Part shown: positions 6,586 to 50,203 of the stretch, one piece after another
Numbering within the stretch: the first letter of the stretch is position 1
Layout of the letters: the number at the start of each line of letters is the position of its first letter
NCBI GenBank assembly: GCA_036984305.1
Contig: BQWY01000001.1
Coordinates: 1,364,001-1,428,000 of the forward strand
Source of the DNA: Nitrospira sp.
GTDB lineage: Bacteria; Nitrospirota; Nitrospiria; Nitrospirales; Nitrospiraceae
DNA: 64,000 bases
Reading direction: 5' to 3'
Notes under the pieces: model-generated
What the model was told of the DNA's origin: nothing
The model's database searches: none
The model's input: the letters and a program-made list of their open reading frames with translations, nothing else
Made by a program: the position numbers and the translations under genes

Positions 6586-6624
6586 CGACGGCGCCGCCTG
6601 AACGCCGCGACAGGAGACCGGACG

Positions 6625-7782
6625 TTGCTCGAAGCGCCCTCGGCAGTACTGACCCATCATTGGCTCGTGAAGCGCCGCGGCGGAGAGCGTGTACTGGAGG
6701 CGCTGTATCGCGTCGCGCCCGGACCGGTGTATACGACCGTCCATGATCCGCGCGGCTTTCGCAACTCATCGCTGGCCGGCGCCGACACGTATACGACATT
6801 TCTGCAGCACCTGCCCGGCGCGACGCGGCGCTACCCCCTGCTGCTGCCGCTGATGCCGCTCGCGGCGCGGCTGACCCGTTTGCCGGACGCCGACATCGTG
6901 CTGTGTTCCGACGCGTGTCTGGCCAAGGCGTTCACGCCCGCCGGGCGCAGCAGGCTGATCTGCTATTGCCACTCGCCGATGCGCTACGCGTGGGAGCCGG
7001 AAATCGAGGCAGTGTATCGCGCGTCGATGCCCGCCGGCGTACGCGCGCTATGGGGCGCGACGATGCGCTATGTGCGGGCGGCGGACGCGAAAGCGGCGCA
7101 GCGCGTCGACGTGTTTGTGGCGAATTCGCGACACGTGGCCAAGCGCATTGAACGCTGCTACGGGCGCGACGCGGTAGTCGTGCACCCGCCGGTTGATCTG
7201 CCGCCGCGGCCGACCGTTACGCCGCGCGAAGATTTCTATCTATGCGTCGGCCAGCATGTGCCCTACAAGCGACTCGACCTGGCGCTGGAGGTCTGTCGAA
7301 AGCGCGATGCGCCGCTGGTCGTGATCGGAGACGGCCCGGATATTCAACGGCTGGACCCGCGCCGATATCCGCGCGTCACGCTTCTCGGCTGGCAGAACGA
7401 TGATACCGTGCGCGGTTATTATCGCCGCGCAAAGGCCCTGCTGTTTCCGGGAGAAGAGGACTTCGGGATTGTGCCGGTAGAGGCGATCGCCCACGGTTGC
7501 CCGGTCATCGCGTACGGCGTCGGCGGCGCGACGGAGACGGTGACAGAAGGCAAGAGCGGCGCTTTGTTCACCCCTCAGACGGAGGAGGCGTTTGGCGCGG
7601 CGCTCGATCGAGCCGCGCATACGCGTTATGACCCGGTGGAAATGTGGGAACTGGCGCAGCAGTTTTCGCACGCGCGTTTTGATCGCGAGATGCGCGGTGT
7701 TATCCAGGCGGCGCTTAAGACTTCTGCGGCTCGCTCGCTACAATCACGCGCGTCGGCCGCACCACCCGCTCATGCATCTTGA
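6625..7782 (+). CDS. Glycosyltransferase family 4 protein
   Basis: 385 residues, TTG start preceded by AGGAG. The C-terminal half carries the GT-B nucleotide-sugar motifs: V-G-Q-H-V-P-Y-K-R near residue 207, I-G-D-G-P near 234, and P-G-E-E-D-F-G-I-V-P-V-E near 273, the E-x7-E region of GT4 enzymes. It would transfer a sugar from an activated donor to a lipid or polysaccharide acceptor. Acceptor and donor cannot be deduced. The 3' end overlaps the end of grpE on the other strand by 68 bases. Confidence 0.85.
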   Translation: MLEAPSAVLTHHWLVKRRGGERVLEALYRVAPGPVYTTVHDPRGFRNSSLAGADTYTTFLQHLPGATRRYPLLLPLMPLAARLTRLPDADIVLCSDACLAKAFTPAGRSRLICYCHSPMRYAWEPEIEAVYRASMPAGVRALWGATMRYVRAADAKAAQRVDVFVANSRHVAKRIERCYGRDAVVVHPPVDLPPRPTVTPREDFYLCVGQHVPYKRLDLALEVCRKRDAPLVVIGDGPDIQRLDPRRYPRVTLLGWQNDDTVRGYYRRAKALLFPGEEDFGIVPVEAIAHGCPVIAYGVGGATETVTEGKSGALFTPQTEEAFGAALDRAAHTRYDPVEMWELAQQFSHARFDREMRGVIQAALKTSAARSLQSRASAAPPAHAS

Positions 7783-23784: not shown

Positions 23785-26700
23785 TCAGGCAGTGGACGAA
23801 TCTACGGTCGCGCTCGCGATGGACGAAACCATGGTGCCAATATCGCAGATTGCCGCAATGCCGAGAAGAAATGCGACTGAAAAGCCTTCGGTTGGGCCTT
23901 TCAACGGGAGCAGCCACGCACAGCTCGTGGGAATCGGCGCCATGATGTTCGCTGCCTCGGTCCACCCGTTCTCATAGTCGGGATCTTTCGACTGTTCGAC
24001 CGTGGCCCAGATTCCCGTTCCCAGCACTGCCGTGCCCGCAATGGTGAGCGCGATGGGACCGACGATCGTGGTGTATTTGCACTCGGACTTGTTCGATGAG
24101 TAGATGGTGAAGGCCATATTCAGGATGGCCGGGACGAATCCCACGGCCCAGTACGTCACGGTTGCCGTGTCTGCCTTCGACCAGTCGGACGTGGATTTCC
24201 CCATCACTTGGTACGGAACAGTAAACCCCTGAATCATGATTGACAGCACGATGTCCGACCACGAGAGGAAAGTGGCCAGCGGATCTTCTTCGCCTTCAGA
24301 CGCCGCCGCAAGGGCATCGTTGGCGAGGTCCGCGGCGGTGTACAAGAAATAGGTAAGGCCGCCCAGAAGCCACAGTATCTCCTGGACCGGCGTGAGTTCC
24401 GAGACGGTGGGGCTCGTGGTCGGAAGCTTCTCGAGCCCCGTTCCCAACGATGGCCAGGGTATCGGTGAGGACGTAATGGTGCTGACCGAGGCGTTCGTAA
24501 AGGGCGGACTGGGGTTGGACGGGTCACTCTTGGTACCGAAGATGATTTTGTACAAAATGGTGGCGGGCACCGCAAGGATCAAGCACAGGAGGTCGAGGAT
24601 GGTCAGATCGTCGCCTTGTGGATTATCGCTACTTTTGGTGATTTCTTTGTACAACCAGGAAAGAATGGGAATGTCGAGAGACTTGTTCAGTGTCGTTTGT
24701 AGGGAGGCGATGGCCGCACTGTAGAAATCCAGCAAGGCGATCAGGATGTCCTCGAGCACGTCCAACACAAAATCCACCACAATTTCGGCTGCCTGGAGGA
24801 AGGCCAGCATCGCGACATCAAAAAACTGCTTTGGGTTGCTCGTCTTGATCGACAAAAAGTTCTGAAGTTGCTGCGTCTGGGCTTGCAGTTGCGACACCTG
24901 TGCCTCGATCAAGTTGTAGAGGTTGTCGAACGGGCTCGTGTCGCCCAGAGAAGGCAAGACCGCCGCCAAGCTCGACGTGCTCGAAAAATGCTGCTGGGCC
25001 TTGGACGTGACGTAATTGCATCGCGCAGCATTGGCCTGATACGTGTCATGGTAGGTTTGGCCTTGCAGCGTGGTCGACGAACCTCCCTTTTGCCTGCTTG
25101 CGTACTGATTCCAGGTCAAGCCCTGTTCAAAAACCTGCTCCGCGTTCGTGAAGGCGCCGTTGATCTCGTTTTGTAGCGCGGCGAACTTTTCCTTGACCAC
25201 GCTCACTAAGTCCTGCTCGCTGTTCTGCAGATTCGTCAGCACGGAATTGAGGTAATACTTGATCACCGTGTGGGTATTCAGGATATCGGACCAGTCGAAC
25301 AATTCTCGTATGAATTTAATGATGTCCTCGACGACGTGAATGGCCTTCTTGATCCAATTGGCCAGAACTTCCAAGAAGTCAGCAATATCATCGACGGTCT
25401 TCAGGACAAACGACTTAAACGCGTTGCCGACATAGATGGCGACATTGACGACGTCGTTCTGGATGGTGTGCACGATGTTCGTGATGTCCTGCCACGCATG
25501 CTTGAAGAAGTGTGCGACATCTCCCCAAAAGTCGGAGAACGAGAAATCGCCAGCCAGGTTTGCTCCGGCCCGAATGCGGGCTTGGGCTTCCTCTTGTGTC
25601 AGCCGCCGGATGCGTGGTTGACCCTGCGCCGTGAATTCGAGTTCCCAGTTCGGCATGTCAACGTGGGTCAGGTCGAAACGGGCGGACGGTGCGGTCCGTT
25701 TCTGGAGCATCAATTGCGCGGCGCTTGTGATGGTGGTCGCGACGGTGTTGGCGTTGGGATAGCCGGGTGGCAAGATTCCGGCACTCTCCAGTGAGGCGCC
25801 GGTGACGGGCAGTGTTGGATCCTGGCCAGCCAGCCGGGCGAGAGAGCTTTTGTCGGCCGGACAGGATTGCCACTGGTTTGAGGACATGAAGTCGGGGACC
25901 TGGACACTCAACATGGGAGCGGTCAAGGTCGTGGCCTGTACGGCTATCGTCAACTTCCCCACGCTGTTGGTGACGACCTGGGCGGATTCCTGTGGACTGA
26001 TATGATAGGCCAATTCGTTGGCAATGATCACGGTGGAGCGGTCGGCCTTGACGTTCATCGTCACGGAAGGGACTGGGCTGTCGTACTGATCCATGGCGAC
26101 GATCTCGGTGGTGTAGGTGCTGACCGAGGCAGGCGTTTGATCGGGGGCCGTCGGACCGTCCAATTGTTGGACGAACCACGACCCATACGTCGAACTTGTC
26201 CCATCGGATACGAGTTTCTGGCTCATGTGCTGCACGACCTCGGTGAGGTCGACATCGAACACTTCCGGTCCGAGCGGCATGAGGGGAGGACAGGCGATGA
26301 CTTTCAACGCGCTTCCCAGCGGAACCCAATTCTGATTGAACACCGGATTGTTTGACGAGTCGGTTCCAATTTGCCTCAACAGCCAGAGCTGTCCCGCCGC
26401 GTCGAGCGCGAACAACATGTACCGCTGCTCGCCATCAAGGCCGAGCGCGACGGATTGAACGCCCGTCGGCGCCGTGCCGGTGGCGAGTAAATCCAAGGTA
26501 TTGGGCGACCCGGAGGCAAACCCTCCCACGTAGAACAGTTGGTCGTTGTTGGCGCGGACCAAAAAGGCGCTTTGTCCCTCCGCGGCCGGGAGTCCGTAGA
26601 ACCGGTCGATCGTGAGTGGACCAGATGCGAGCGGGAAACTATTCCATTGTGAATTGGGTGCCCATTGAAACGTTCCGTCCACAATCGAGCCGCATCGGTA

Positions 26701-27360
26701 ATTGATAGTGGTGCCGGACTGGGAGTCGTCCGGCTGGAGAATCGTCAACTGCGTCGAATTCAACCCGATAACGACGAGGTACGCGGGAGTCGTGGACGCG
26801 GATGTCATCGTGAAGTTGAGCTGCCACGAGTTCGTGCTCTCGTCCCGAGAGATGAGAAAAAACGTAGGCTGGCTACCCGATATGGAAATGCCATACAGGT
26901 AGTAATTGCCGTCGGGATCCCGATACATGTCGGTTTGTGTCGTTTGGCTCAGGACAGTGGGCAGCGACTGTAAAGCATTCCAGTATCCTTCCGCCGAACA
27001 TTGCATCCACATGACTGCGTTGTCTGCGCTGCCGTCTGAGGACGGATAGAAGACCAGCACGTTCAGCTCACCGGATTCGTAGAAGGCCTGGAGTTTTGAG
27101 ATGGGGGCCGGCAGGACTATGGGAATCGGGACTACGTTTTGGTTCCAGCCGGAGTGCGAACTCTGATCTCGCACGAAATGCAGGACACTCGTATTGTCAT
27201 TGCCCACAGTGAGAAGCTCATTGATCACATCCCCGTTCACCTCATTGCTGACCACGACAAACTTATCGGTGAGGCCGCTGGCCACCGGTGGGGTCATGAC
27301 TAACAAATAGTCCTCGATCAGGCTCGAACTCGCGGTAATCGCCGAAGCGGTGCGTGTCAT
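23785..27360 (-). CDS. Very large protein with propeller-like, Ig-like, amphipathic and membrane regions; unknown function
   Basis: 1191 residues with no N-terminal signal peptide. Residues about 30-370 are beta-rich with repeated aromatic/glycine patterns (for example Y-Y-L-Y-G-I-S and L-F-Y-V-G-G-F), suggesting a beta-propeller or lectin-like domain. A beta-sandwich-like stretch resembling invasin/Ig domains follows (about 400-500). From about residue 620 a long amphipathic helical part begins (D-F-W-G-D-V-A-H-F-F-K-H-A-W), leading into a C-terminal region with several hydrophobic helices after about residue 860. This could be a pore-forming or membrane-inserting effector, or a surface protein, but I know no matching family. 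It faces the two secreted collar-like genes in the same direction. Confidence 0.7.
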   Translation of the reverse strand: MTRTASAITASSSLIEDYLLVMTPPVASGLTDKFVVVSNEVNGDVINELLTVGNDNTSVLHFVRDQSSHSGWNQNVVPIPIVLPAPISKLQAFYESGELNVLVFYPSSDGSADNAVMWMQCSAEGYWNALQSLPTVLSQTTQTDMYRDPDGNYYLYGISISGSQPTFFLISRDESTNSWQLNFTMTSASTTPAYLVVIGLNSTQLTILQPDDSQSGTTINYRCGSIVDGTFQWAPNSQWNSFPLASGPLTIDRFYGLPAAEGQSAFLVRANNDQLFYVGGFASGSPNTLDLLATGTAPTGVQSVALGLDGEQRYMLFALDAAGQLWLLRQIGTDSSNNPVFNQNWVPLGSALKVIACPPLMPLGPEVFDVDLTEVVQHMSQKLVSDGTSSTYGSWFVQQLDGPTAPDQTPASVSTYTTEIVAMDQYDSPVPSVTMNVKADRSTVIIANELAYHISPQESAQVVTNSVGKLTIAVQATTLTAPMLSVQVPDFMSSNQWQSCPADKSSLARLAGQDPTLPVTGASLESAGILPPGYPNANTVATTITSAAQLMLQKRTAPSARFDLTHVDMPNWELEFTAQGQPRIRRLTQEEAQARIRAGANLAGDFSFSDFWGDVAHFFKHAWQDITNIVHTIQNDVVNVAIYVGNAFKSFVLKTVDDIADFLEVLANWIKKAIHVVEDIIKFIRELFDWSDILNTHTVIKYYLNSVLTNLQNSEQDLVSVVKEKFAALQNEINGAFTNAEQVFEQGLTWNQYASRQKGGSSTTLQGQTYHDTYQANAARCNYVTSKAQQHFSSTSSLAAVLPSLGDTSPFDNLYNLIEAQVSQLQAQTQQLQNFLSIKTSNPKQFFDVAMLAFLQAAEIVVDFVLDVLEDILIALLDFYSAAIASLQTTLNKSLDIPILSWLYKEITKSSDNPQGDDLTILDLLCLILAVPATILYKIIFGTKSDPSNPSPPFTNASVSTITSSPIPWPSLGTGLEKLPTTSPTVSELTPVQEILWLLGGLTYFLYTAADLANDALAAASEGEEDPLATFLSWSDIVLSIMIQGFTVPYQVMGKSTSDWSKADTATVTYWAVGFVPAILNMAFTIYSSNKSECKYTTIVGPIALTIAGTAVLGTGIWATVEQSKDPDYENGWTEAANIMAPIPTSCAWLLPLKGPTEGFSVAFLLGIAAICDIGTMVSSIASATVDSSTA

Positions 27361-27774: not shown

Positions 27775-28593
27775 CTAGTCTTTTTGACATTGGAGTAGCT
27801 GCATGTAGGGAAGCGTACTTAATGCGGCGCTAGAATTTCCAGAGTAGTCGTACGTGCCCGAATGGCCGTAGCCCCATGAATGTGTCCATGGGGCTTGCAC
27901 GAGCGAGAGAACCGTGGGTGTCACACCGCCTGAAAACGAGTGCGCGTGCGTCCGGTTTTCGTTCGGGGCCAGCGCCCCGCCGCCGAAGGCGGCGGGCGCT
28001 TGACCGGCTGCAGGAAGGCCCACCAGAAACCGTCCCTGTGTTGCCGCCGGCTGGCTCCACCCTGGGTTGGGGCAGTCAAGGCCGGCCGTGAATATGAGGA
28101 TCCCGCTTGGAATACTGCCCGCATTTGGTGCCGGGTTCTCTTCCTTGAGGCAGACCAGCAGTTGCACGTAGGGAACTTGAACGCTGGAAGCCGCCGTCGT
28201 GCCGTCGAATGCAAATGGGCCACGTGAAGTCGGATCGTCATTACAACAGCCGTCAACGCCTTTGATGTAGGCGTTATCAAGAAGGATGCTCGAGCTGAAA
28301 CTATGAGTATGCGTCCGATTCTCACCGCTCTTCAGCGCCGTGTCGACTGTCTCCTGCGTCGTGCCGTTCGGCATCAACGGTACGACAAAACGCCCATTCA
28401 TCGCGTCCGCAAGGTTCCCTGTGGGGGTCCAGCCACCGGGACATTGCGTCGCGTTAAAAAAGGCAATGGTTTGCTGGGGATACGGGTCCTGAGCGCGGAC
28501 CGGTACGGGTGTCCCCATCACCACCGCGAACAGCGCGAGGGTCAGGGCGATCACTGTTCCTTGTGTAACAGAGCGAGACTGCGATGCTCCCAT
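27775..28593 (-). CDS. Secreted phage-tail-collar-like protein, two repeats
   Basis: 272 residues with a clear signal peptide (hydrophobic residues about 13-30 ending V-R-A-Q). Two similar halves follow. Each has a G-R-F motif, a G-E-N-R-T-H-T-H-S-F or N-E-N-R-T-H-A-H-S-F motif and ends in P-Y-V-Q-L-L-V-C-L-K-E or P-Y-M-Q-L-L-Q-C-Q-K-D. The H-x-H-S block is typical of tail-collar domains, here in an exported protein rather than a phage. Function unknown; a carbohydrate-binding or surface role is a guess. The gene follows its single-domain paralogue by 15 bases. Confidence 0.65.
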   Translation of the reverse strand: MGASQSRSVTQGTVIALTLALFAVVMGTPVPVRAQDPYPQQTIAFFNATQCPGGWTPTGNLADAMNGRFVVPLMPNGTTQETVDTALKSGENRTHTHSFSSSILLDNAYIKGVDGCCNDDPTSRGPFAFDGTTAASSVQVPYVQLLVCLKEENPAPNAGSIPSGILIFTAGLDCPNPGWSQPAATQGRFLVGLPAAGQAPAAFGGGALAPNENRTHAHSFSGGVTPTVLSLVQAPWTHSWGYGHSGTYDYSGNSSAALSTLPYMQLLQCQKD

Positions 28594-28608
28594 GTGTCAC
28601 GTCCCTTC

Positions 28609-29055
28609 CTATTCCTTTTGGCACGCAACGAGTTGGTAAAATGGCAGATTGGAGGGTGCCTCATCCACGGTTCCAGAAACAGTAGAGGACCCCGACGCGG
28701 CGTAGGATTTGTCCTTCCCCCCCGTAATTAACGCAGCATGTTTGCTCGAGAGTTGTACCGTCGCCTGGTAACTGTGCTCATGCATAGGCGCCGTCTTGTC
28801 CTGAAGCGGAGGTCCGACTATGACGCCCACATCCGATGAATTCTGAACCGCCACGACAGCACGTCCCTGGACGTTGGTTGCGACATTCCAGCCTGAGCCG
28901 TGGTCACATGTGGTGCTCATAAAGAACGCCATCATCCCCGTGGGGGTGCCATCAGTGTCGGCTGGCTCCGCCGCGATCGCTGACGATCCGGCGCAAAACC
29001 CAAGGAGCCCGGCTATCAGAACACGTCCCGTACAGCATCGTAGTCCCTTTCGCAT
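28609..29055 (-). CDS. Secreted single-repeat tail-collar-like protein
   Basis: 148 residues from ATG 29055, chosen for the GGAGGGG site upstream. A signal peptide (hydrophobic stretch ending S-A-I-A-A) is followed by one collar-like unit with G-R-A-V-V, M-H-E-H-S-Y and the end P-F-Y-Q-L-V-A-C-Q-K-E. That ending matches both repeats of the adjacent 272-residue protein, so the three units are paralogous. First gene of the minus-strand run leading to the 1191-residue protein. Confidence 0.6.
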   Translation of the reverse strand: MRKGLRCCTGRVLIAGLLGFCAGSSAIAAEPADTDGTPTGMMAFFMSTTCDHGSGWNVATNVQGRAVVAVQNSSDVGVIVGPPLQDKTAPMHEHSYQATVQLSSKHAALITGGKDKSYAASGSSTVSGTVDEAPSNLPFYQLVACQKE

Positions 29056-29270
29056 TCGTACAGCCCCTCCGTGACGCTGATGAGTTGGAATCGCTCGACA
29101 GGATCGAGAGATCGATGTCGAATGGCGATGCACTTATAACGAGTGCTACGTGGTAGCGCAAGGCGAAGGTGAGCGCCATCAGGTATTAGCCCAGGCCGAG
29201 CCAGTGATCTGCCTAGGAACGGAGAAAAGAAAAGGAGGTGTCCTGTCGTCAGCAGCGACTGACGAATTGC

Positions 29271-29351: not shown

Positions 29352-29816
29352 GTGCGAAAATACTGGGTGATCCTACAGGCTGGTCTCGCGGTCGCCGTGA
29401 TTCGGATCCTGGTGCGCCTGTTGCCGTTGCCCCGAGTGCTGAGTTGCCTACATGCAGATGGCACTTCCAACACGCTCGACCGAGCCGCCCTCGACGATCT
29501 TGCCTATTATACGGATCGATGGTTGATCTTGTTTCCTGCCAACGCAAAGGGAAATTGTTTCCCTCGCTCGCTGACGCTGTATCGATTCGCGCGGCGGTTG
29601 GGTTTTCCCGTGCGGTTTCATTGCGGGATCCAAAAGAACGGACAGACGCTCGACGGGCATGCGTGGCTCTCGCTCGAAGGGGCCGCCTTTCTCGAGCCGA
29701 CTCGGCATTGGGAAGGGTTTACGGTTACGTATTCATACCCGTGCACCGACAATACGGCCCAGGGGCCTACATCGGCTGAGCATGTGGGGGCCTCCAGCGG
29801 ACGGGTCGTTTCCTGA
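29352..29816 (+). CDS. Lasso-peptide B2-type leader protease (transglutaminase-like)
   Basis: 154 residues, GTG start after GGACGGAA. The region around C-F-P-R-S-L-T-L-Y-R (Cys69) and the D-G-H-A-W (His103) motif matches the B2 cysteine protease of lasso-peptide pathways (transglutaminase-like fold), which removes the leader from the precursor. In known systems it acts with a separate PqqD-like B1 protein that holds the leader. Here that partner is about 4.5 kb downstream in the same run. It is the first gene of the cluster. The third member of the catalytic triad was not placed with certainty. Confidence 0.8.
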   Translation: MRKYWVILQAGLAVAVIRILVRLLPLPRVLSCLHADGTSNTLDRAALDDLAYYTDRWLILFPANAKGNCFPRSLTLYRFARRLGFPVRFHCGIQKNGQTLDGHAWLSLEGAAFLEPTRHWEGFTVTYSYPCTDNTAQGPTSAEHVGASSGRVVS

Positions 29817-29823
29817 GTCAACC

Positions 29824-30441
29824 ATGTCGAGCCGCCGATCAACATTGACTCGCCGGCAATTCGGACTTTGGACCGCCGCAGGTGCGGTGATCGTTGGCCT
29901 GAATCGGGGATGTGGGCTGTGGCCGGATGCGGTGCAGGCCGAACATCCTGAGCTTCCTCCCGTCCGATTGTTGCAGGGCCCCTTCCAGGCACTGTCCGCC
30001 TACGAGGCGACGTTACTGGATGAAGTCACGGCTCTCTTGATCCCGACCGATCAGGATCCCGGGGCCCGCGAAGCCGGCGTGGTCGCGGTACTGGATCGGG
30101 CGCTGGCTGCACACGAGCAGCAGCGAACGATCTATCGATCGGGCTTCGCTTGGCTGGATTTCTACGCGAACGCTCTGTACGGGCAGGACAGTTTTCTCCT
30201 GCTCCCGCCAGCCGGTCGGCTCAGAATGTTGGAATTGGCGGAGTCAGGCCGGGTTGGACGACTGCACAAACTCAAAGAGTGGTGGCGGTTTGGAACGCTT
30301 GGGCACGGCGTTCGCTTCTTCGAGTTGGTGAAGGCCGACACGTTTGCGGCGTTCTATACCGCCCGACAGGGGTGGCAGGTGGCGGGTTATCATGGACCGC
30401 CGCAGTACCGCGGATTTCCAGACTATGCACGGTGTGGGTGA
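29824..30441 (+). CDS. Tat-exported gluconate 2-dehydrogenase subunit 3-like protein
   Basis: 205 residues. The N-terminus has a twin-arginine signal (T-R-R-Q-F-G) followed by a hydrophobic stretch, so it should be exported folded through Tat. The rest matches the small subunit of gluconate/fructose-type GMC dehydrogenases (L-L-D-E-V-T-A-L-L-I-P-T-D near residue 70; E-L-V-K-A-D-T-F-A-A-F-Y-T near residue 165). The catalytic partner is the next gene, three bases away. Such small subunits help export and stabilise the flavoprotein. Its position inside a RiPP cluster is unusual. Confidence 0.75.
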   Translation: MSSRRSTLTRRQFGLWTAAGAVIVGLNRGCGLWPDAVQAEHPELPPVRLLQGPFQALSAYEATLLDEVTALLIPTDQDPGAREAGVVAVLDRALAAHEQQRTIYRSGFAWLDFYANALYGQDSFLLLPPAGRLRMLELAESGRVGRLHKLKEWWRFGTLGHGVRFFELVKADTFAAFYTARQGWQVAGYHGPPQYRGFPDYARCG

Positions 30442-30444
30442 CCG

Positions 30445-32127
30445 GTGTCCGGTGACGCGGTAGACGTGTGTATCATCGGATCGGGCGCCGCCGGGGCGGC
30501 CATGGCTTATGCGCTTGGCCAGGCCGGGCTCTCGGTCGTGGTCTTGGAGTCGGGTCCACGGTTCGATCCTACCCGGTATCCGATGAATGATCCCAATTGG
30601 GAGACTCGGCCGGGCGCATTCGACCCGACCCCTGCACAGCGTCACCAGTATCTCTATGGGACAGGTCCGGCCGAACCGCTCGATGGGCGCTTCGATCACC
30701 TCCATTCGTGGTCCGAGGCCGACGGGCGGTACATCACGTCCGGCAAGCGAACACCACCCCGGGTCCATCGGGTGCGTGGCGTCGGCGGCACGACGCTTCA
30801 CTACCAAGGCGAGGCCCATCGCTTTTCGCCCCATGGGTTCCAGTCCCGTTCGCTGTTGGGGTACGCGGAAGATTGGCCGATTCGCTACGACAGCCTGACG
30901 CCCTACTACGATGAGATGGAGCGGCTCCTTGGGGTGGCCGGCGATCATGCGAATCCGTTCAAGGCACCCCGGGGGCCCTTTCCCAATCCTCCGCATGCGA
31001 TGAGTTGTGCGAGCCGACACGTCAAGCGCGGGTTTGACCGGATGGGGTTGCACCTGCATCCAAATTCGCTGGCGATCCTTTCGCGCCCGTATGACGGACG
31101 AATGGCCTGTATCTATTGCAATGGGTGTTCGATGGGGTGCATGACGCGCGCCAAAAGCAGCGCCGATGTGGCCCTGATTCCCAAGGCAGAGGCTTCCGGA
31201 CGCGTTGCGATCCGCACGGGAGTCGTCGTCCATCGCTTGTTGACCGATGCCAACGGTCTGGTTGATGGCGCGCTGTATTTCGATGATCAAAAGATGGAGC
31301 GGCGGCAAGCCGCCCGTGTTTTCGTCGTGGCCTGTGGCGCCCTCGAAACACCGAGGCTGTTGTTGAATTCGAGTTCGCCGAGGTTTCCCGATGGACTCGG
31401 CAACCGCAGCGGATTGGTGGGGCGTTATTTCATGGAGACGCTGTATCATGCGACCACCGGGCTCTTTCGCGAACCATTGCATTCGTACGAGGGACTTCAG
31501 ATCGACAGCCGTGCTTGGGATTGGAATACGACCAGTTCAACGCGAGGGTTTGCCGGAGGCGTCGTCCTGGGCGTATCGGCCTCCGGGCTGCTTGGACCGC
31601 TGACCTATGCCCGGGCTGTCGCGCCGGGATGGGGGAAGCGACACAAGGATTTCATGCGAACTTACTTCGGTCATGCGATCACGGTCTTCGCCAACGGCGA
31701 ACATCTGCCGCACCGGGAGAACCGCATCGATCTCGATCCCGAAAAGCGGGATGGGCACGGAGTGCCCGTCGCCCGGATTACGACCGCACTTCGTCAGAAC
31801 GATCTTGAGATGTTGGCGTTCATGAAGACCCAATGCCGGGCCGTGCTGGAAGCGGCAGGAGCCGAGCGCATCATCGGGGAGGAAAGCGCCTACGACATAA
31901 GTTCGATTACGCATATGGGCGGGACCTGCCGCATGGGCGACGACCCGAGTCGGTCCGTCGTCGATCGGTCTTGTCGTTCTCATGACGTGCGCAATCTCTA
32001 TGTCGTGGACAGTAGCAGCTTCGTGACACAAGGTGGCGGGGACAGCCCCTCGCTGACCATTCAAGCTCTTGCCCTACATGCGGCTGAGCACCTGATCCAA
32101 TTCGTCAACGCCGGCGGGCATTCCTAG
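30445..32127 (+). CDS. GMC-family FAD oxidoreductase (dehydrogenase large subunit)
   Basis: 560 residues, GTG start. The dinucleotide-binding G-S-G-A-A-G is at about residues 12-17, a C-I-Y-C-N-G-C-S-M-G-C cysteine cluster near residue 220 and the C-terminal H-M-G-G-T-C-R-M-G and G-G-G-D-S-P-S-L-T-I-Q segments of GMC alcohol dehydrogenases are present. It would oxidise an alcohol, probably in the periplasm together with the Tat-exported small subunit. The substrate might be a peptide side chain, a sugar or an unrelated alcohol. A 302-base gap separates it from the ATP-grasp genes, so the link to peptide modification rests on position. Confidence 0.8.
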   Translation: MSGDAVDVCIIGSGAAGAAMAYALGQAGLSVVVLESGPRFDPTRYPMNDPNWETRPGAFDPTPAQRHQYLYGTGPAEPLDGRFDHLHSWSEADGRYITSGKRTPPRVHRVRGVGGTTLHYQGEAHRFSPHGFQSRSLLGYAEDWPIRYDSLTPYYDEMERLLGVAGDHANPFKAPRGPFPNPPHAMSCASRHVKRGFDRMGLHLHPNSLAILSRPYDGRMACIYCNGCSMGCMTRAKSSADVALIPKAEASGRVAIRTGVVVHRLLTDANGLVDGALYFDDQKMERRQAARVFVVACGALETPRLLLNSSSPRFPDGLGNRSGLVGRYFMETLYHATTGLFREPLHSYEGLQIDSRAWDWNTTSSTRGFAGGVVLGVSASGLLGPLTYARAVAPGWGKRHKDFMRTYFGHAITVFANGEHLPHRENRIDLDPEKRDGHGVPVARITTALRQNDLEMLAFMKTQCRAVLEAAGAERIIGEESAYDISSITHMGGTCRMGDDPSRSVVDRSCRSHDVRNLYVVDSSSFVTQGGGDSPSLTIQALALHAAEHLIQFVNAGGHS

Positions 32128-32429: not shown

Positions 32430-33449
32430 GTGATCCTTCTCCTCGCCGACGCCACAGATCCATGGTCAACTCACGTCGAGCGGGAACTGATCCGCCGACA
32501 CCAACCGGTGTCACGAGTCGACCCCCGGTCCTTGTGCGGCGGGCTGTCGTTCGACTGGAGGCTCGAAGGTTCGAGCCGTTCCTCTTTCCACTCGATCACC
32601 CCGGATCATGTACCTGTGGAGGCTCGAGCCGAACTACGAGCCGTGCTGGTGCGTATGCAGATAGGAGCCCTGGAGCTGCCGGAGGACACTTTCAACTCCG
32701 AGGATCAGGTGTATGCGCAAATGGAATGGTCGGCCGCGCTCTTCGGGTGGCTCAACGCGTTGTCGTGCCCGGTGATCAACCCTCCTGTCCCCGGAAGGTC
32801 TGGTCGGCTGTTCCCGATGCAGGCCTCGGTACAAGGGGCTTTGTTGCAGCTTGGAGTCGCGGTGCCTCCTCATGCGGTGGCGTCCACTCGCGAGACTGTA
32901 CTCGAACACTATGCACAATGGAACGAGCTGGCGCGTGCGCAGTCGCTCGGCCCTGATGCGAAAGTTCACTACCTGCAGGGTGGTGACGGACATGCCGTCG
33001 TCGATGCCATGCTCGCGCACGGGCCGATACTGCTCCAAGCGGTGCCGGAGGGAAGCCCTGTGCGCGCCGTGGTGGTCGGCGAGGAAGTCATCGGCGGAAC
33101 GCGGCGGACGGCGGCGCAGGACGGATGCCTACGCGAGTCGATTTGGGACGCCGCACCTCTGCCGCCATCGCTGGCGAATGTCTGCCGCCGACTCGCAGGT
33201 GTGCTTGCACTTCCATTCGTTGACATCGAGATGGTCCAGGGCCACGAGGGGCAGCTGAGTTGCCTGGGGATCAGCGAGTCACCGGCGTATGGACAATACA
33301 GCGATAGACTGCGCCACTTGATTGTGGACCGCTTAGTGAATCTCTTGGACAACACCGAGGAGAGGCGTGCGCATGATCCTTATGTTTGGCCGACTCCGCG
33401 ATCCGATCACCGCCAGCCTGGCGGTGCAGCTTGCTGCCCGATCAGCTGA
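32430..33449 (+). CDS. Degenerate ATP-grasp protein, partner of the following ligase
   Basis: 339 residues. The start is set at GTG 32430 because GGGAGG lies eight bases upstream and the protein then begins M-I-L-L-L-A-D like ATP-grasp peptide ligases; upstream in-frame sequence looks non-coding. It aligns at its C-terminal part with the next gene: V-D-I-E (Asp265) corresponds to V-D-L-R there, and C-L-G-I-S-E-S-P-A (residues 278-286) to C-F-E-V-N-P-S-P-A. The Glu and Asn that bind magnesium are Gly280 and Ser282. It is probably a non-catalytic or altered partner that binds peptide or ligase. It overlaps the next gene by 77 bases in another frame. Confidence 0.65.
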   Translation: MILLLADATDPWSTHVERELIRRHQPVSRVDPRSLCGGLSFDWRLEGSSRSSFHSITPDHVPVEARAELRAVLVRMQIGALELPEDTFNSEDQVYAQMEWSAALFGWLNALSCPVINPPVPGRSGRLFPMQASVQGALLQLGVAVPPHAVASTRETVLEHYAQWNELARAQSLGPDAKVHYLQGGDGHAVVDAMLAHGPILLQAVPEGSPVRAVVVGEEVIGGTRRTAAQDGCLRESIWDAAPLPPSLANVCRRLAGVLALPFVDIEMVQGHEGQLSCLGISESPAYGQYSDRLRHLIVDRLVNLLDNTEERRAHDPYVWPTPRSDHRQPGGAACCPIS

Positions 33450-34296
33450 TCTGATCCTCGTCGAACCATGCGACGCGTCGACGGCACAACGGATCCTGTG
33501 GCAGGGCGATCAGGATGGGCTCCAGGGGCGTGTCCACATCGGCGAACGCTCCGTCGAAGCTCATGCCATTCGGTCCATGTACGTGCGGCAGATCGGAAGC
33601 GGCGCGGTCCGCACGCCCGAATCAGGCGCGGATCTCGGGTCGCGCGTCCGTGCCGAAAGTTTGTGGGCACTGACAGACGCGTATCGGGGGCTTGTGGTCA
33701 ATCGCCGAATGGCCAGCTGTACGAATGCCTCAAAACCATATCAACTCGACATGATTCGGCGGGAGGGATTTCGAGTGCCGCACACGATCGTAACGACCCG
33801 GCCGAATGCCGCACGCGCGTTTTGGCACGAGTTCCGAGGTGAGGTCATCTATAAGTCACTCAGCTCAGAGCGTTCGATCGTGAAGGCCATGACCCATGCA
33901 GATCTTCACAGATTGGAATTGATTTGTTCGTGTCCGGTCCAACTCCAGGAACGAATCCCCGGCGTGGACATCAGGGTGCATGTGATCGGCACGCGCATCT
34001 TTGCCACCGAAATTCGCTCTCACGCCGCGGACTACCGATATGCCGAGCTGGAAGGGGCGAGCCGGGAAATGCGCCCGATTCAGCTGCCCGATGAGGTGGC
34101 CAGCCGGTGCATGGAGCTCACGAAAACGCTGGGATTGGCCGTGGCGGGGGTCGATCTCCGGCGCACTCCGGGAGGGGAATATTGTTGCTTCGAGGTGAAT
34201 CCAAGTCCGGCCTTTCTGTGGTTCGAGGACATCACGGGCCAGCGGATTGGAGCGGCCATTGCGGATTTGCTGTGCAAGGGGGCGGTCTGGAACTAA
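33373..34296 (+). CDS. ATP-grasp peptide ligase (graspetide/RimK-like)
   Basis: 307 residues from ATG 33373, with GAGGAGAGG upstream. The ATP-grasp fold is indicated by K-S-L-S-S (Lys161), Q-E-R-I-P-G-V-D-I-R-V-H-V-I-G-T-R-I-F-A (about 192-211), Asp261 in V-D-L-R and the magnesium motif E-V-N-P-S-P (Glu274, Asn276). The end, F-L-W-F-E-D-I-T-G-Q, resembles graspetide ligases such as MvdD, which form lactam or ester links between Glu/Asp and Lys/Ser/Thr side chains of a precursor. In this cluster it is the only intact ATP-dependent bond-forming enzyme seen, so it is the best candidate for making the ring. Confidence 0.78.
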   Translation: MILMFGRLRDPITASLAVQLAARSADLILVEPCDASTAQRILWQGDQDGLQGRVHIGERSVEAHAIRSMYVRQIGSGAVRTPESGADLGSRVRAESLWALTDAYRGLVVNRRMASCTNASKPYQLDMIRREGFRVPHTIVTTRPNAARAFWHEFRGEVIYKSLSSERSIVKAMTHADLHRLELICSCPVQLQERIPGVDIRVHVIGTRIFATEIRSHAADYRYAELEGASREMRPIQLPDEVASRCMELTKTLGLAVAGVDLRRTPGGEYCCFEVNPSPAFLWFEDITGQRIGAAIADLLCKGAVWN

Positions 34297-34320: not shown

Positions 34321-34791
34321 ATGACTGAGACGAAGACAGCGCCGAAAGGTCTCTTTATCCAATCCGACCTTCGCCCGGATGTGCATGCGGAGGTGGAGTC
34401 AACCGCGCTGCCCGGTGGCACCGGCGCCTCCACCGCAGAGATCGCCTCTGTAGCCAGCCATGTACTCACAGGGGCCGGCTATCCATCAGCATGCCAACGT
34501 TGGGATCCCAGTCTCTTCCTTGGCCGCGTGCTCACGCACAGTTGCGACGTGCAATTTACGGTGCTGGACGACGAAGCCGTTCTGCTCAACCTCACTAACG
34601 GTCATTACTACACGCTCAATCGTGTGGGCACGATGATCTGGGGGTCACTGGACGGTCGTCGGCCGCTCAATGACACGCTTGATCAATTATGCAAGCAGTT
34701 CGAAGTCGACCGGGGTCGGGCTCACGATGATTTGGTGGCTCTCGTCGTGCGTATGGAGCACGAAGGGTTACTTCAAGAGGAAAGGAGGTGA
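34321..34791 (+). CDS. PqqD-like leader-binding protein (B1/RRE) with N-terminal extension
   Basis: 156 residues, AGGAGG nine bases before the ATG. Residues about 70-152 form a PqqD-type RiPP recognition element: L-D-D-E-A-V-L-L-N-L-T-N-G-H-Y-Y-T-L-N-R-V-G, then a helical half ending V-R-M-E-H-E-G-L-L. Such proteins bind the leader peptide and present it to the modifying enzymes; in lasso systems this is the B1 role. The first ~65 residues are an unfamiliar extension. The stop is five bases before the first precursor gene, and a perfect ribosome site for that gene spans the stop. Confidence 0.82.
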   Translation: MTETKTAPKGLFIQSDLRPDVHAEVESTALPGGTGASTAEIASVASHVLTGAGYPSACQRWDPSLFLGRVLTHSCDVQFTVLDDEAVLLNLTNGHYYTLNRVGTMIWGSLDGRRPLNDTLDQLCKQFEVDRGRAHDDLVALVVRMEHEGLLQEERR

Positions 34792-34796
34792 TTCGG

Positions 34797-34934
34797 ATGC
34801 AAAAGCAAGGGCAGAAGCAGGCGTACGCTGAGCCCGTTCTCGTGAAGCGCGAGCAGCTGCGGGATGTGACCGCAGGCAATGGCGTGAAGTACAGGGAGAA
34901 GCTGCTCGACAAGTTTAGCGATGTACCTCTGTAA
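34797..34934 (+). CDS. RiPP precursor peptide 1 with lasso-type leader
   Basis: 45 residues, ATG preceded by AAAGGAGGTGAT, a near-perfect ribosome site. The leader (residues 1-26) holds Y-A-E-P-V-L (YxxPxL, Tyr10-Leu15) and ends V-T-A, with Thr at the penultimate position, both hallmarks of lasso leaders. The predicted core is GNGVKYREKLLDKFSDVPL (34875-34931): Gly1 and Glu8 are exactly placed for an eight-residue macrolactam. Lys5, Glu8, Lys9, Asp12, Lys13 and Asp16 also offer side-chain crosslinks for an ATP-grasp ligase. It shares A-Y-x-x-P-V-L-V-K-R-E-Q-L-R-D-V-T-A-G and core K-Y-R-E-K with precursor 2. Confidence 0.85.
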   Translation: MQKQGQKQAYAEPVLVKREQLRDVTAGNGVKYREKLLDKFSDVPL

Positions 34935-35011: not shown

Positions 35012-35128
35012 ATGCTGAAGAAGCAAGCGTACACGGCGCCGGTGCTCGTCAAGCGCGAGCAGCTGCGCGACGTCACCGCGGGCGTGAGCGGGAAGTATCG
35101 CGAGAAGTATTTTGAATTCCCGCGCTAG
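35012..35128 (+). CDS. RiPP precursor peptide 2 with lasso-type leader
   Basis: 38 residues, ATG preceded by AAAGGAGGTGAT. Leader residues 1-23 contain Y-T-A-P-V-L (Tyr7-Leu12) and end V-T-A. The predicted core is GVSGKYREKYFEFPR (35081-35125), again with Gly1 and Glu8. Nucleotides differ from precursor 1 at many third codon positions (for example cgg/cgc, gat/gac, gtg/gtc, gca/gcg) while the leader protein is the same, which shows selection on the peptide. A longer in-frame start at 34964 would add 16 residues but is less likely. Confidence 0.85.
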   Translation: MLKKQAYTAPVLVKREQLRDVTAGVSGKYREKYFEFPR

Positions 35129-35223: not shown

Positions 35224-36264
35224 ATGTCATCCACTTTTATGATGACGGATAAAGAACTCAGATACTGCGTCCATGGGGTCGACGTCAGAATCGTGACGGA
35301 TTCGCACTTGTTCATCGAACCTGCCACGACCTTGCTCCGGTACTTCCGATGGGACGCGTCACCCTCGGCACGGGAAGTCTCCCTGCACCTGATGGGACAC
35401 GAGCATCGCAACCAAATTCCGATACGCGTCCCGGTCGACGCGGAACCACTCTGCAACAAGTCCGGCACGGCCGTGGGTGATGCCCTGCGTCAGAATTGGG
35501 CGTGCACGATTTCACGCGCTGGCCGAACGCTCTTCGCCGATTTTCACGAACAGGGGCTAGTGGTCATCGACTCCGAGAAGGGCGAGGCTCACGCGTTTCT
35601 GGTGCGACCGGAAGCCATGCACGCCGATATTCTCGACAGCTATGTCCATTTCATGCTGACCGAACTTCTCCGATATCACGGTCTCTTTACGATGCATGCG
35701 ACCTCGTTGGAGAAGCACGGCCTGGGAGTGCTGATTCCCGGATTCAGCGGACGCGGGAAGACCACGACCTTTCTCTCCCTGCTGCGATCCGGGTATCGAT
35801 ATCTCTCCGACGATCATCCCATGCTGCGCGATGCCGGCGGAGAGATAGAGTTGCTGTCCTTTCCGATGAAGGTGGACGTGACCGAGCACACCATTTCGTT
35901 CTTTCCGGAGTTGCGCGAGGCAGGGGTCGGCGTCCTTCAGCCGGGGCCACGGAAACAATTCTTCTATGTCGAGGATGTGTACGCTCAGGCTGCCATCGGG
36001 AATCGATGCAAGCCGGCACTCATTCTCTTCCCTCATGTCGTCGATGCGGAACGCTCTTCTCTCGAGCGCTTGCCTAAGAGTCAGGTCATGCAGGATTTGC
36101 TGCCTCAGGGGCTCGTGGCGTACGACCGGGACCTCGCGGGGCGACAATTTCAAGTCCTCGCAAAGTTGGCGTCCCAGGTCGACTGCTACCGTCTGAACTT
36201 CGGGCGGGATGTCTTGGGGCTGCCGGCGCTTATCGACCCCTTACTAGAGGCCGCCCACACATGA
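35224..36264 (+). CDS. HPr-kinase-like protein of RiPP clusters
   Basis: 346 residues. The C-terminal half carries a P-loop G-F-S-G-R-G-K-T-T (residues 173-181) and an S-D-D-H motif (195-198) of the HPr kinase/phosphorylase fold. HPr-kinase homologues occur in lasso clusters, where one type phosphorylates a serine of the peptide. The N-terminal ~150 residues lack the usual HprK domain. Possible acceptors here are Ser15 of core 1, Ser3 of core 2 and Tyr6 of both. The stop overlaps the next gene start (ATGA). Confidence 0.75.
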   Translation: MSSTFMMTDKELRYCVHGVDVRIVTDSHLFIEPATTLLRYFRWDASPSAREVSLHLMGHEHRNQIPIRVPVDAEPLCNKSGTAVGDALRQNWACTISRAGRTLFADFHEQGLVVIDSEKGEAHAFLVRPEAMHADILDSYVHFMLTELLRYHGLFTMHATSLEKHGLGVLIPGFSGRGKTTTFLSLLRSGYRYLSDDHPMLRDAGGEIELLSFPMKVDVTEHTISFFPELREAGVGVLQPGPRKQFFYVEDVYAQAAIGNRCKPALILFPHVVDAERSSLERLPKSQVMQDLLPQGLVAYDRDLAGRQFQVLAKLASQVDCYRLNFGRDVLGLPALIDPLLEAAHT

Positions 36265-37481
36265 TTCGTCTGTTGCCACCCGCCATGAGTCGAGAGGCGC
36301 TCCTGGTCTCGCTGTGTGCCCGCACGAGTCTGGATCCCGGATGTGAAGGGCGAATTCGCCAATTGGCTCAGGGGGCGACGGACTGGGCGTGCGTCGCCGA
36401 GATCGCCAAGTGGCACGGCGTGGCACCGCTGGTATATCGGAACCTCACCCGGGTGTGTCGGGATCGGGTCCTGCCGATTGTGCTCGATGACCTGAAGCAA
36501 TATTACCAGGCCTCGGCCATGCTCGGGCATTCGCTGGCCAAGGATCTCGCGCTGCTCTGTCAATCGTTTGCCGTCCGTGGCATACCCGCCGTTCCGTTCA
36601 AGGGCCTGACTTTGGCCCAGACCGCCTATGGAGACATCGCCGCACGCGAGTGTGGGGATATCGATATGATCGTGCACCGTGAAGATCTCCCTCGCGCGCG
36701 CCTCGTGCTCGAGCGCGAAGGCTACGAATGCGCGACAGACGATGCGGCTAAGGCCTCGGATCCGGACGACGCCTTCAATCTCTATATCAAACGAGCCCGC
36801 GGGGTGACGGTTGATTTACAGTGGGTCATGGCCGACGGGTCCTTTTCATTCCGTCTCGACCGCCCGCAATTTTGGCAGCGTCTTCGGACGGTGGCGATCT
36901 CCGGTACCGAGGTCAAGGCGTTGGCGCCCGAGGATTTGCTGTTGGTCCTGTGCGTTCACGGCGCAAAACACGTGTTCGAACAACTCAAATGGATCGGTGA
37001 CCTAGGGGAGCTCCTGCGCCGCCATCCGAATTTTGATTGGGCCTACTTCGAACGGACTGCAAAGGAATGGTCCTGCTGGCGGATGGCTCTCGTGGGTCTG
37101 ACCTTGGCGCGAACGCTCTGGGGAGCATCACTGCCTGGACGAATAGAGCGAGCCATCATGGATGACGGAGAGGTGCCGGCCCTGGCTCGACGCATGCCCA
37201 AAACCCTGCTGAGCGATCCCAGTTACGGGTTAGGCGAGGGGGAGAGGGAAGTGTTTTTCTTCGCCACCAAGGACTCGCGGTGGCATCAATGGCGGCACGG
37301 CCTTGCTCTCAGCCGAGATCGAAGCCCCAGTTTAGCCGTCGATCATCCGTGGCTGCCGGCCTGGAGGCGTCTGCAAGGGGTTCATCGGGCCATAGACCCT
37401 ATGAGGGACATGCTAAAGCGGATGATCCCGTCGGCAACCATTCGACAGCGTATCACTCAATGGCTGCTTCCCGCGTCGTAA
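36261..37481 (+). CDS. Nucleotidyltransferase-fold protein (NTP_transf_5-like)
   Basis: 406 residues. The region F-K-G-L-T-L-A-Q-T-A-Y-G-D-I-A-A-R-E-C-G-D-I-D-M-I-V (about residues 113-138, cited in parts) has the G-D-I-D aspartates of the nucleotidyltransferase fold. This family is a frequent neighbour of lasso B1/B2 and HPr-kinase genes, but its reaction is largely uncharacterised. It may transfer a nucleotide to the peptide or to a phosphate placed by the kinase. It overlaps the kinase gene by four bases and is the last gene of the cluster. Confidence 0.75.
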   Translation: MIRLLPPAMSREALLVSLCARTSLDPGCEGRIRQLAQGATDWACVAEIAKWHGVAPLVYRNLTRVCRDRVLPIVLDDLKQYYQASAMLGHSLAKDLALLCQSFAVRGIPAVPFKGLTLAQTAYGDIAARECGDIDMIVHREDLPRARLVLEREGYECATDDAAKASDPDDAFNLYIKRARGVTVDLQWVMADGSFSFRLDRPQFWQRLRTVAISGTEVKALAPEDLLLVLCVHGAKHVFEQLKWIGDLGELLRRHPNFDWAYFERTAKEWSCWRMALVGLTLARTLWGASLPGRIERAIMDDGEVPALARRMPKTLLSDPSYGLGEGEREVFFFATKDSRWHQWRHGLALSRDRSPSLAVDHPWLPAWRRLQGVHRAIDPMRDMLKRMIPSATIRQRITQWLLPAS

Positions 37482-48712: not shown

Positions 48713-50203
48713 TCACCCTTGCGAGTACCAGCGATAGCCGTGAGTCTGCTGAACCGATGGGCGGGGTGCTGCGCCGGGCTTCTCGAGCAAGAGCACTTTG
48801 AAATCGAGGAGGCCGAACCACGCAGGATCGGCGACGTCATGGTAGTGGCAGCCTCGCAGTTTAGGGAGAACATCGCCGAGTGTCTGCGATAGTTCGGTTT
48901 CCGTGTATGCACGGACGGAAAATGGTTTGTTGAGCGCCTGGCAGAAGCGCTGGATCGTGTAGGTGGCGCCCGTGCAGAGGACCTTCGTGGCGGGTTTCAT
49001 GGACAAAAACTGTGGCAGGGTCAGGTAGCGCTCTTGGAAGCCCAACCATCGGACCGCCTGACGTAAATGAGCATATTGGACTTCGTATTCAGTGTGACCA
49101 GGAAGTTTCACCGGTGCCGGCCAGCCGTCCTCAATCCCAAATTCTGTCAGAAACGCGCGCCCACCTGGTTTCAGTATGCGCCAGAGTTCCGCGACAAATC
49201 GAATCGGCCCTAAATTGAAAATGACCTCATCCGGAAGGTTGCCACCGATGGGGATCCGCATCCGCCTGATCCAGTCGAGTGCTTCCTGGTGCTGGGGGGT
49301 AGTCCCCTGGCTGGACTGTAGCTCTTGCCTCGTGAGCCTCACTGGCGTCATGTCAGCCATATTCTCGTTATCGATGACGACATCGACGGAATGGTCCTTC
49401 AAAGGAAGCCATTCTCCGTTGGCTTGCGTGCCCTTGCAGGACCAGCCGCTCTGGGTGGCGCGCGAAAGTTGAAAGTCGAGGAACAGGCGAGTGACGTCCA
49501 GGCACAGGTAGGTGATGCCCTGCTTTTCAAACGGCAAGAGTTCCTTGCCCATCTCCCGAGCGACATAACCCAAGCCACCCCCGATTTCCAGGATGACCTT
49601 CGGTTTCGGGCTGAACCAGCCCAGGCGGCGCAGTTGCTTGAGGAGGAGGCGGCCGTAGGTTGTCCCACCGAGCGCCTGGGTGGGCTCACGGAACAAATGG
49701 GACACGGTTGTCTCGATCAGATCGAAATGTGCGTCGTCCCGATGGGCGTCCTTCAGATCGTGAACGTGAAATTCTTCGAGGTCCTGTTCGCCCTCGAATC
49801 CCTCCTGCCCCGACCACCCTTCGCGAATCTGTTGCAAAAGGAGGTCCCATTTAGCCTTGTGACGATGGCCGCCCGGTGGTTCGTTGCCGAAGTAACAGAG
49901 AGAGTAGTTGGGCAACGCCCAGCGCTCCAAATGCCATTGGCCGTCATATCCGTCGGGGCCGCATACCCACTTTCCGTACTTTTCCAACAAGGCTCCGACG
50001 CTGATGTGCCCGTTCATGAGATTCAGCATTTCGAAGCCGACACGGTTCAAGCGGATGAGCGGCAACTGATCGTCGAGTGGGGCGAACCACCACTCATCGG
50101 GACCGTGCTGGTAGGCGACTAAATCGGGGATGCGCCAGGCGCACTTCGATAGCGCGTCCGGCGAAAGTGCAAGCGGGGCATGTTGAACCACGGCTGGCTT
50201 CAT
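48713..50203 (-). CDS. PqqD-like domain fused to a SAM methyltransferase
   Basis: 496 residues. Residues about 18-78 look like a PqqD-type peptide-binding fold: R-I-P-D-L-V-A-Y near residue 24, then L-I-R-L-N-R-V-G-F-E-M-L-N-L-M-N-G-H-I-S-V near residues 49-69. The methyltransferase domain has motif I V-I-L-E-I-G-G-G-L-G-Y at about 203-213 and D-V-V-I-D-N-E-N near 274. A recognition element joined to a modifying enzyme is a typical RiPP design, so the substrate may be a leader-bearing peptide. No precursor was found beside it; the two precursors at 34.8-35.1 kb are candidates. The PqqD-like call is by pattern and unverified. Confidence 0.65.
   Translation of the reverse strand: MKPAVVQHAPLALSPDALSKCAWRIPDLVAYQHGPDEWWFAPLDDQLPLIRLNRVGFEMLNLMNGHISVGALLEKYGKWVCGPDGYDGQWHLERWALPNYSLCYFGNEPPGGHRHKAKWDLLLQQIREGWSGQEGFEGEQDLEEFHVHDLKDAHRDDAHFDLIETTVSHLFREPTQALGGTTYGRLLLKQLRRLGWFSPKPKVILEIGGGLGYVAREMGKELLPFEKQGITYLCLDVTRLFLDFQLSRATQSGWSCKGTQANGEWLPLKDHSVDVVIDNENMADMTPVRLTRQELQSSQGTTPQHQEALDWIRRMRIPIGGNLPDEVIFNLGPIRFVAELWRILKPGGRAFLTEFGIEDGWPAPVKLPGHTEYEVQYAHLRQAVRWLGFQERYLTLPQFLSMKPATKVLCTGATYTIQRFCQALNKPFSVRAYTETELSQTLGDVLPKLRGCHYHDVADPAWFGLLDFKVLLLEKPGAAPRPSVQQTHGYRWYSQG

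Follow-up and report, generated by a model that had tools for sequence, protein, structure and literature searches.

A conserved degenerate ATP-grasp partner beside a probable graspetide-type ligase in a lasso-like gene cluster of Nitrospira without a lasso cyclase

In the window, by which we mean the whole 64,000-nucleotide stretch of Nitrospira sp. DNA under analysis (positions 1,364,001 to 1,428,000 of contig BQWY01000001.1), two ATP-grasp genes lie in tandem and overlap, and the first of the encoded proteins, GR1, lacks magnesium ligands that are present in the second, GR2. The locus raises the question of whether GR1 is a copy damaged in a single strain or a conserved pseudoenzyme standing beside an intact ligase, and of what such a pair may act upon. 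The coordinates of the features considered are collected in Table 1.

Table 1. Features of the ATP-grasp pair and of the surrounding gene cluster, in window coordinates.
Feature	Coordinates	Strand	Remarks
Lasso B2-type leader protease (Transglut_core3)	29352..29816	+	PF13471 3e-15; NF033537 1e-11, over cut-off
Gluconate_2-dh3-like protein	29824..30441	+	PF13618 4e-19; likely start within longer ORF 29659-30441; cluster membership uncertain
GMC oxidoreductase	30445..32127	+	PF05199 7e-23; cluster membership uncertain
GR1, degenerate ATP-grasp protein (very likely pseudoenzyme), 339 aa	32430..33449	+	GTG start 32430, stop 33449
GR1 degenerate metal-binding motif C-L-G-I-S-E-S-P, residues 278-285	33261..33284	+	Aligned with F-E-V-N-P-S-P of GR2
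GR1/GR2 gene overlap, 77 bp	33373..33449	+	Same length in 15/15 clusters of this type, window included
GR2, intact graspetide-type ATP-grasp ligase (likely), 307 aa	33373..34296	+	ATG 33373, stop 34296; alternative GTG start 33367
PqqD/B1-like RiPP recognition protein with long N-terminal tail, 156 aa	34321..34791	+	PF05402 1e-15, NF033536 4e-13
FIQSDLRP, proposed docking motif on PqqD tail, residues 12-19	34354..34377	+	Docking inferred
Precursor peptide 1	34797..34934	+	Lasso-type leader YAEPVLVKREQLRDVTA, core GNGVKYREKLLDKFSDVPL; ribosome-binding site AAAGGAGGTG read in sequence
Precursor peptide 2	35012..35128	+	Leader YTAPVLVKREQLRDVTA, core GVSGKYREKYFEFPR
HprK-related kinase	35224..36264	+	PF07475 4e-6, TIGR04352 1e-17, both under cut-off
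NTP_transf_5 nucleotidyltransferase-like protein	36261..37481	+	PF14907 4e-64; found in almost every related cluster of this type

The protein GR2 has the attributes expected of an active enzyme. It matches the RimK, TIGR04187, MvdD and MvdC ATP-grasp models, scoring 4e-44 with TIGR04187 and 6e-29 with MvdD (both under the curated cut-offs) and 2e-14 or weaker with the RimK-family models, and its closest solved structure is PsnB (6e-22). The FE-V-N-PSP metal motif is present, and the ATP- and magnesium-binding residues and the DxR motif are in place. In the 32 loci compared, GR2 retains KPxQ, the second (YK) lysine, DxR, the Asp of G-x-D before [LF]-[RK] and E-x-N, with Asn replacing the Asp of DxR in a few loci, and this catalytic residue set is missing from all 28 of the GR1 partners (28/28). 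GR2 is thus likely to be a graspetide-type ATP-grasp ligase, its side-chain crosslinking activity being inferred. A scan of genome contigs with GR2 as query returned one locus only; neither GR1 nor GR2 matched the known defence systems in PADLOC, and no near match to the cluster was found in a plasmid collection.

As for GR1, profile searches gave no match to Pfam models and a weak match to TIGR04187 (3e-10). Comparison of the GR1 and GR2 profiles yields an alignment over nearly the whole length with 99.9% probability, and the AlphaFold model of GR1 (pLDDT 75, pTM 0.74) matches PsnB (7dro) over its full length (Z 20.2, rmsd 4.8, 281 aligned residues), so that on the model the protein has an ATP-grasp fold; the ATP- and magnesium-binding residues and the DxR motif are not in place. 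The original prediction, made from the sequence alone, had described tandem ATP-grasp genes with the motif E-V-N-P-S-P in the second protein and G-I-S-E-S-P in the first, which would remove the magnesium ligands from the latter. Both claims held, the coordinates and the motif alignment being confirmed: Gly280 and Ser282 of GR1 occupy the positions of the Glu and Asn of the GR2 metal motif. Beyond these two residues, GR1 has lost DxR and the lysine of KPxQ, and the YK-type lysine is absent from the window protein and kept in full-length orthologues from the same cluster type, as YLKPLGS. When checked in orthologues, the exact G/S substitution itself proved not to be conserved: this pair is found only in the window genome and the orthologues are mostly D-x-S; their metal motif reads D-[IV]-S in most, D-V-N in loci L037 and L043 and D-W-N in L046. 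The loss is shown to be graded, since GR1 retains the Asn in these three loci, and E-x-N was never found intact in any of the GR1 orthologues.

That absence bears directly on the possibility of accident, as an intact E-x-N among orthologues had been named beforehand as the finding that would refute a conserved pseudoenzyme. A strain-specific mutation or a sequencing error in GR1 was accordingly considered and is rejected, since every orthologue shows the loss and the dN/dS is low. Indeed, outside the overlap dN/dS amounts to 0.13-0.21 for GR1 (0.06-0.13 for GR2), which shows that GR1 evolves under purifying selection. The overlap of 77 bases, likewise predicted, was confirmed and further found to be identical in the window and 12 related clusters (13/13) and then in 2 clusters fetched afterwards; it is not a matter of chance, because the length is the same in all 15. 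The full-length GR1s form a single clade (SH-aLRT 95), with long branches leaving the deeper order of the tree unsure, and within this cluster type GR1 and GR2 are 24-29% and 48-52% identical, respectively, to their counterparts in the window. The alignment of GR1 orthologues contains invariant residues.

The degenerate partner is not confined to clusters with this arrangement, being conserved also where the two genes overlap differently, and in a second genome group. In other loci from the same phylum, and in the paralogue L004 of the window's own genome, the partner is shorter (~225-280 residues) and most of the ATP-binding part is missing. These truncated forms still match the MdnC/PsnB fold (Z 19.1 and 17.7) and have in common with the full-length ones the signature D-x2-Y-x3-E-x2-A; since they are without most of the ATP-binding part, nucleotide binding cannot be a role common to all partners. 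Taken with the orthologues, the dN/dS values, the single clade, the conserved overlap and the full graspetide-synthetase fold of the model, this gives good support to the predicted pseudoenzyme partner, and we consider it very likely that GR1 is one, conserved as such. The complex with GR2 and the role therein are inferred: the heterodimer, and the choice between GR1 as a substrate binder and as an activator of GR2, are neither confirmed nor excluded.

The surroundings of the pair, namely a lasso-type context and a putative docking motif, were absent from the original prediction, and both alter the view of what the pair acts on. The cluster contains the two proteins that handle lasso leaders, B1 (PqqD) and B2, with PF05402 and NF033537 over cut-off and the lasso PqqD models under it; the B2-type protease is the sole PF13471 match in the genome, and the precursors bear the Y-x-x-P leader and the penultimate Thr of lasso peptides. 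Related clusters share most of this set (B2, PqqD/B1-like protein, precursors, kinase and nucleotidyltransferase-like protein), with relatives of the HprK-related kinase that are ~50% identical. What is lacking is the lasso C protein, the asparagine-synthetase-like macrolactam cyclase: none is present in the window cluster or in the related clusters examined, and in four of the latter, examined in detail, the interval from B2 to GR1 holds an ABC transporter or nothing, and no cyclase. Across the genome no protein exceeds the NF033535 lasso cyclase cut-off. A cyclase acting from elsewhere in the genome was also considered and is unlikely, as the five Asn-synthase-like genes fit asparagine synthase or XrtA amidotransferase models better.

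The composition of the interval preceding GR1 varies. No counterpart of the Gluconate_2-dh3-like protein was found in related clusters, some of which have an ABC transporter where the window has this gene and the GMC oxidoreductase; a fatty-acid-hydroxylase-like gene is also seen further along in related clusters, in place of these same two genes.

Analysis of the precursor cores shows a distinct spacing of lysine and acidic residues. In the set of 24 related cores K-x-x-[DE] occurs in 21 (shuffled mean 9.1), and K-x-[DE] is depleted (1 observed, 9.8 expected), although these counts are not independent, as the cores are related by descent. The motif is missing from the other three, and one further core, from L106, departs from the pattern. 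The two cores in the window satisfy the lasso ring rule as well, having Gly1 and Glu8 after the T-x site; of the 24, ~7 combine a small first residue with an acid at positions 7-9. The cores suggest, by inference from the sequence, Lys-Asp/Glu links. Several of the same clusters have a second precursor set (QYVQPVVVKHELLRDITAGQSG..., often with two Cys, some ending in RRWWNND; L035:16421-16691, L036:3540-3850, also L038, L039, L040, L041 and L045), which shows no K-x-x-[DE] pattern, adjoins a second PqqD, kinase and nucleotidyltransferase, and may belong to a different product. Separately, in L085 (bacterium CPR1), at about 5-517 of its reverse strand, repeats of MKYPSDAEDGGGG resembling a microviridin core lie beside another ATP-grasp gene.

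The second element is a short motif that accompanies the pair: FI/YI-x(4)-RP is encoded by a neighbouring gene in 27 of the 28 paired loci of the window's phylum, the exception being the divergent L059. For a formal count the strict form [FY]I-x2-[DEAGH]-[LEF]-RP was used, and it was found in 25 of 620 ORFs, with 0.1 expected in shuffles. These 25 comprise 11 PqqD proteins and 14 others, and all of the 14 have a mixed Lys/(Glu+Asp) score of at least 0.45, with none of the 595 remaining ORFs above 0.40. Their folded parts are unrelated (M6 peptidase, DUF6519, Kelch, esterase-like). Because the motif was picked after some loci had been seen, those fetched afterwards provide a fair test: where the neighbouring gene region is uncut, the motif is present in seven of eight (L095, L098, L099, L100, L106, L107, L108). 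Three loci cut by contig ends (L083, L096, L097) were left outside this test, the repeat being still visible in two of them. When sought beside the pair, the motif was absent from L094 and from the divergent L059, and it was absent from the expected place in the unpaired relatives L060-L062 and L101. The motif thus tracks the pair and not the unpaired GR2 relatives, from which we infer that GR1 or the GR1-GR2 interface is favoured as its binder.

The position of the motif is variable, being N-terminal in L033, L095 and L098-L100 and near the C-terminus in several other proteins. In lasso-type clusters it sits on a ~70-residue tail of PqqD, and the second PqqD found in some of these loci, adjoining the other precursor set, is without such tail or motif. 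In most non-lasso relatives it lies on a Lys/Glu/Asp-repeat protein beside the pair, which is likely to be the substrate, the chemistry being inferred. It remains possible that the motif binds something other than the ATP-grasp pair, or that it is itself the modified site. One case observed in passing is L108, where a protein judged tyrosinase-like by eye (6304-7569 of the reverse strand), with KELKE repeats and FIRPELRPDL, adjoins a truncated GR1 and GR2.

These elements may be assembled into a two-component model. As in other graspetide synthetases, GR2 would use ATP to phosphorylate the side chain of an Asp or Glu and then join the activated group to the side chain of a Lys, forming an isopeptide crosslink; GR1, presumably a dead copy from an old duplication, would most likely form a complex with GR2 and help to hold the substrate. 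The FI-x(4)-RP motif would mark substrates for the pair. In most relatives outside lasso-like clusters it would do so on the Lys/Glu/Asp-repeat protein, the probable substrate, encoded next to the pair, and in the window it would act from the N-terminal tail of PqqD, the recognition domain of which would bind the lasso-type leader of both precursors and bring cores such as GVSGKYREKYFEFPR to GR1 and GR2, the B2 protease afterwards cutting off the leader. In the paeninodin pathway PadeB1 binds the leader with nanomolar affinity (PMC5067487). Docking in trans is plausible, since a graspetide leader is still functional once moved to the C-terminus (PMC13003496) and ATP-grasp ligases are activated by a leader that is covalently linked to a protein (cited in PMC8498205).

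As a whole, this model, in which GR2 makes Lys-Asp/Glu crosslinks, GR1 is its pseudoenzyme partner and PqqD is the adaptor from lasso-type leader to pair, is our preferred explanation and moderately likely; the sequence features and the gene neighbourhood were observed, and chemistry, complex, docking and order of steps are all inferred. Against it stand the absence of any biochemistry, mass spectrum or complex model behind it, and the fact that the lasso-type cores are short, unlike the long repeat tails of the non-lasso motif proteins. A bolder reading, which in our judgement could as easily prove wrong as right, would have a widespread system of pseudoenzyme and active ATP-grasp ligase crosslinking Lys and Glu/Asp in repeat tails, the target proteins being unrelated to one another (peptidase, esterase-like, tyrosinase-like, Kelch-like and others) and picked out by the FI-x(4)-RP tag. 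In one lineage the tag would have moved onto a PqqD adaptor, which would have rewired the system to short lasso-type peptides and let a single leader-recognition domain serve two enzyme systems.

Other explanations must be weighed against this model. The pair could replace the missing lasso cyclase, activating Glu8 and joining it to the Gly1 freed by B2 to give a lasso-like macrolactam ring. The lasso-type character of leaders, PqqD/B1 and B2, the absence of the cyclase and the presence of Gly1 and Glu8 after the T-x site in both window cores speak in its favour. However, the related cores that meet both ring rules are far fewer than those with K-x-x-[DE] (~7 against 21 of 24), and relatives of the pair adjoin Lys/Glu-repeat proteins that have no lasso leader, so that we regard this as unlikely. 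Also unlikely is that GR2 acts as RimK does, ligating amino acids such as glutamate onto targets without internal crosslinks, with GR1 still assisting. Such a role would agree with the Pfam RimK match, the fold common to RimK and the location of the motif near the C-terminus in several motif proteins, but the peptide-maturase models score far better than those of RimK, PsnB is the closest structure, and the motif is N-terminal in the five loci listed above.

With respect to GR1 itself, two further readings appear very unlikely. One is that it retains nucleotide binding as an ATP-sensing allosteric subunit, and not as a substrate-binding partner, as might be suggested by two features kept in full-length orthologues, the YLKPLGS lysine and a metal motif of the form D-x-S or D-x-N; yet this lysine is lost from the window protein, and the ATP-binding part is largely missing from the truncated partners in non-lasso loci. 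The other is that GR1 is a functionless, decaying copy retained only because the overlap is needed for GR2 translation. Its greater divergence from the window protein, relative to GR2, would fit, but selection is purifying outside the overlap, residues are invariant among orthologues, and the degenerate partner is conserved where the overlap differs and in the second genome group.

We return to the two-component model and its relation to known systems. GR2 has profile similarity, catalytic residues and DxR in common with the graspetide synthetases (PsnB, MdnB/MdnC, PruB, CdnC, CorB; TIGR04187/TIGR04184/TIGR04185), among which CorB, a TIGR04187 enzyme, links Lys to Asp through an isopeptide bond within repeats of a KxxxD motif (PMC13097080). 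Known graspetide systems rely on a single active ligase or, in microviridin pathways, on two that are both active. Here, by comparison, one of two ligases is dead and the recognition motif may sit on a separate PqqD protein. A precedent for the partner is branch 8 of the ATP-grasp loci in PMC8939145, where peptidases accompany an ATP-grasp protein that is truncated and has no catalytic activity; precursors were not predictable for these loci, and the authors supposed that the peptides derive from other proteins. The inactive truncated partner and the peptidase recall the M6-peptidase loci studied here, and the branch 8 features fit L052 among others and, on sequence grounds, L004, L053 and L054. 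The two are likely to be the same group, a judgement made without sequence comparison. The difference is that in the present loci the Lys/Glu repeats and the motif are part of the neighbouring protein, be it a peptidase or another. Dependence on a partner protein is also known from the graspetide rosaritide, in which MirB is inactive without the copurifying MirC (PMC13097080); MirC is SurA-like, with an N-domain weakly resembling an RRE, and is not a degenerate ATP-grasp protein.

On the lasso side, the clusters of paeninodin and pseudomycoidin have in common with the window PqqD/B1, B2, an HprK-like kinase, a nucleotidyltransferase-like protein, the Y-x-x-P leader and the penultimate Thr. They differ in that the window has no lasso cyclase, its cores are without the conserved C-terminal Ser, and its PqqD has the additional motif-bearing tail. 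Graspetide groups 33 and 39 of PMC13097080 include transglutaminase-fold proteins, as does the window cluster, identity with it not being established.

Of these elements, graspetide synthetases and an inactive, truncated partner have been described before. No description of the FI-RP motif, of Lys/Glu-repeat substrates or of a PqqD adaptor for ATP-grasp enzymes was found in the literature searched, subscription papers and supplements being outside reach, and within that limit the motif, the repeat substrates, the full-length pseudoenzyme with fixed overlap and the PqqD adaptor appear to be new. If the model is correct, graspetide biosynthesis gains a conserved pseudoenzyme subunit, candidate substrates become available for ATP-grasp loci whose precursors defied prediction, and RiPP modules would be rewirable by placing a short docking tag on the protein that recognises the leader. 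Such a design of tag and adaptor lends itself to direct testing and might find use in the crosslinking of chosen proteins.

Two minor observations concern other parts of the window. Upstream of the cluster, on the reverse strand, 27775-29133 and 23785-27360 encode two small proteins that look secreted and a protein of 1191 aa without Pfam match. Further along, also on the reverse strand, 48713-50203 encodes a methyltransferase, the N-terminus of which is PqqD-like by eye and which has a weak PADLOC mad2 match (2e-10).
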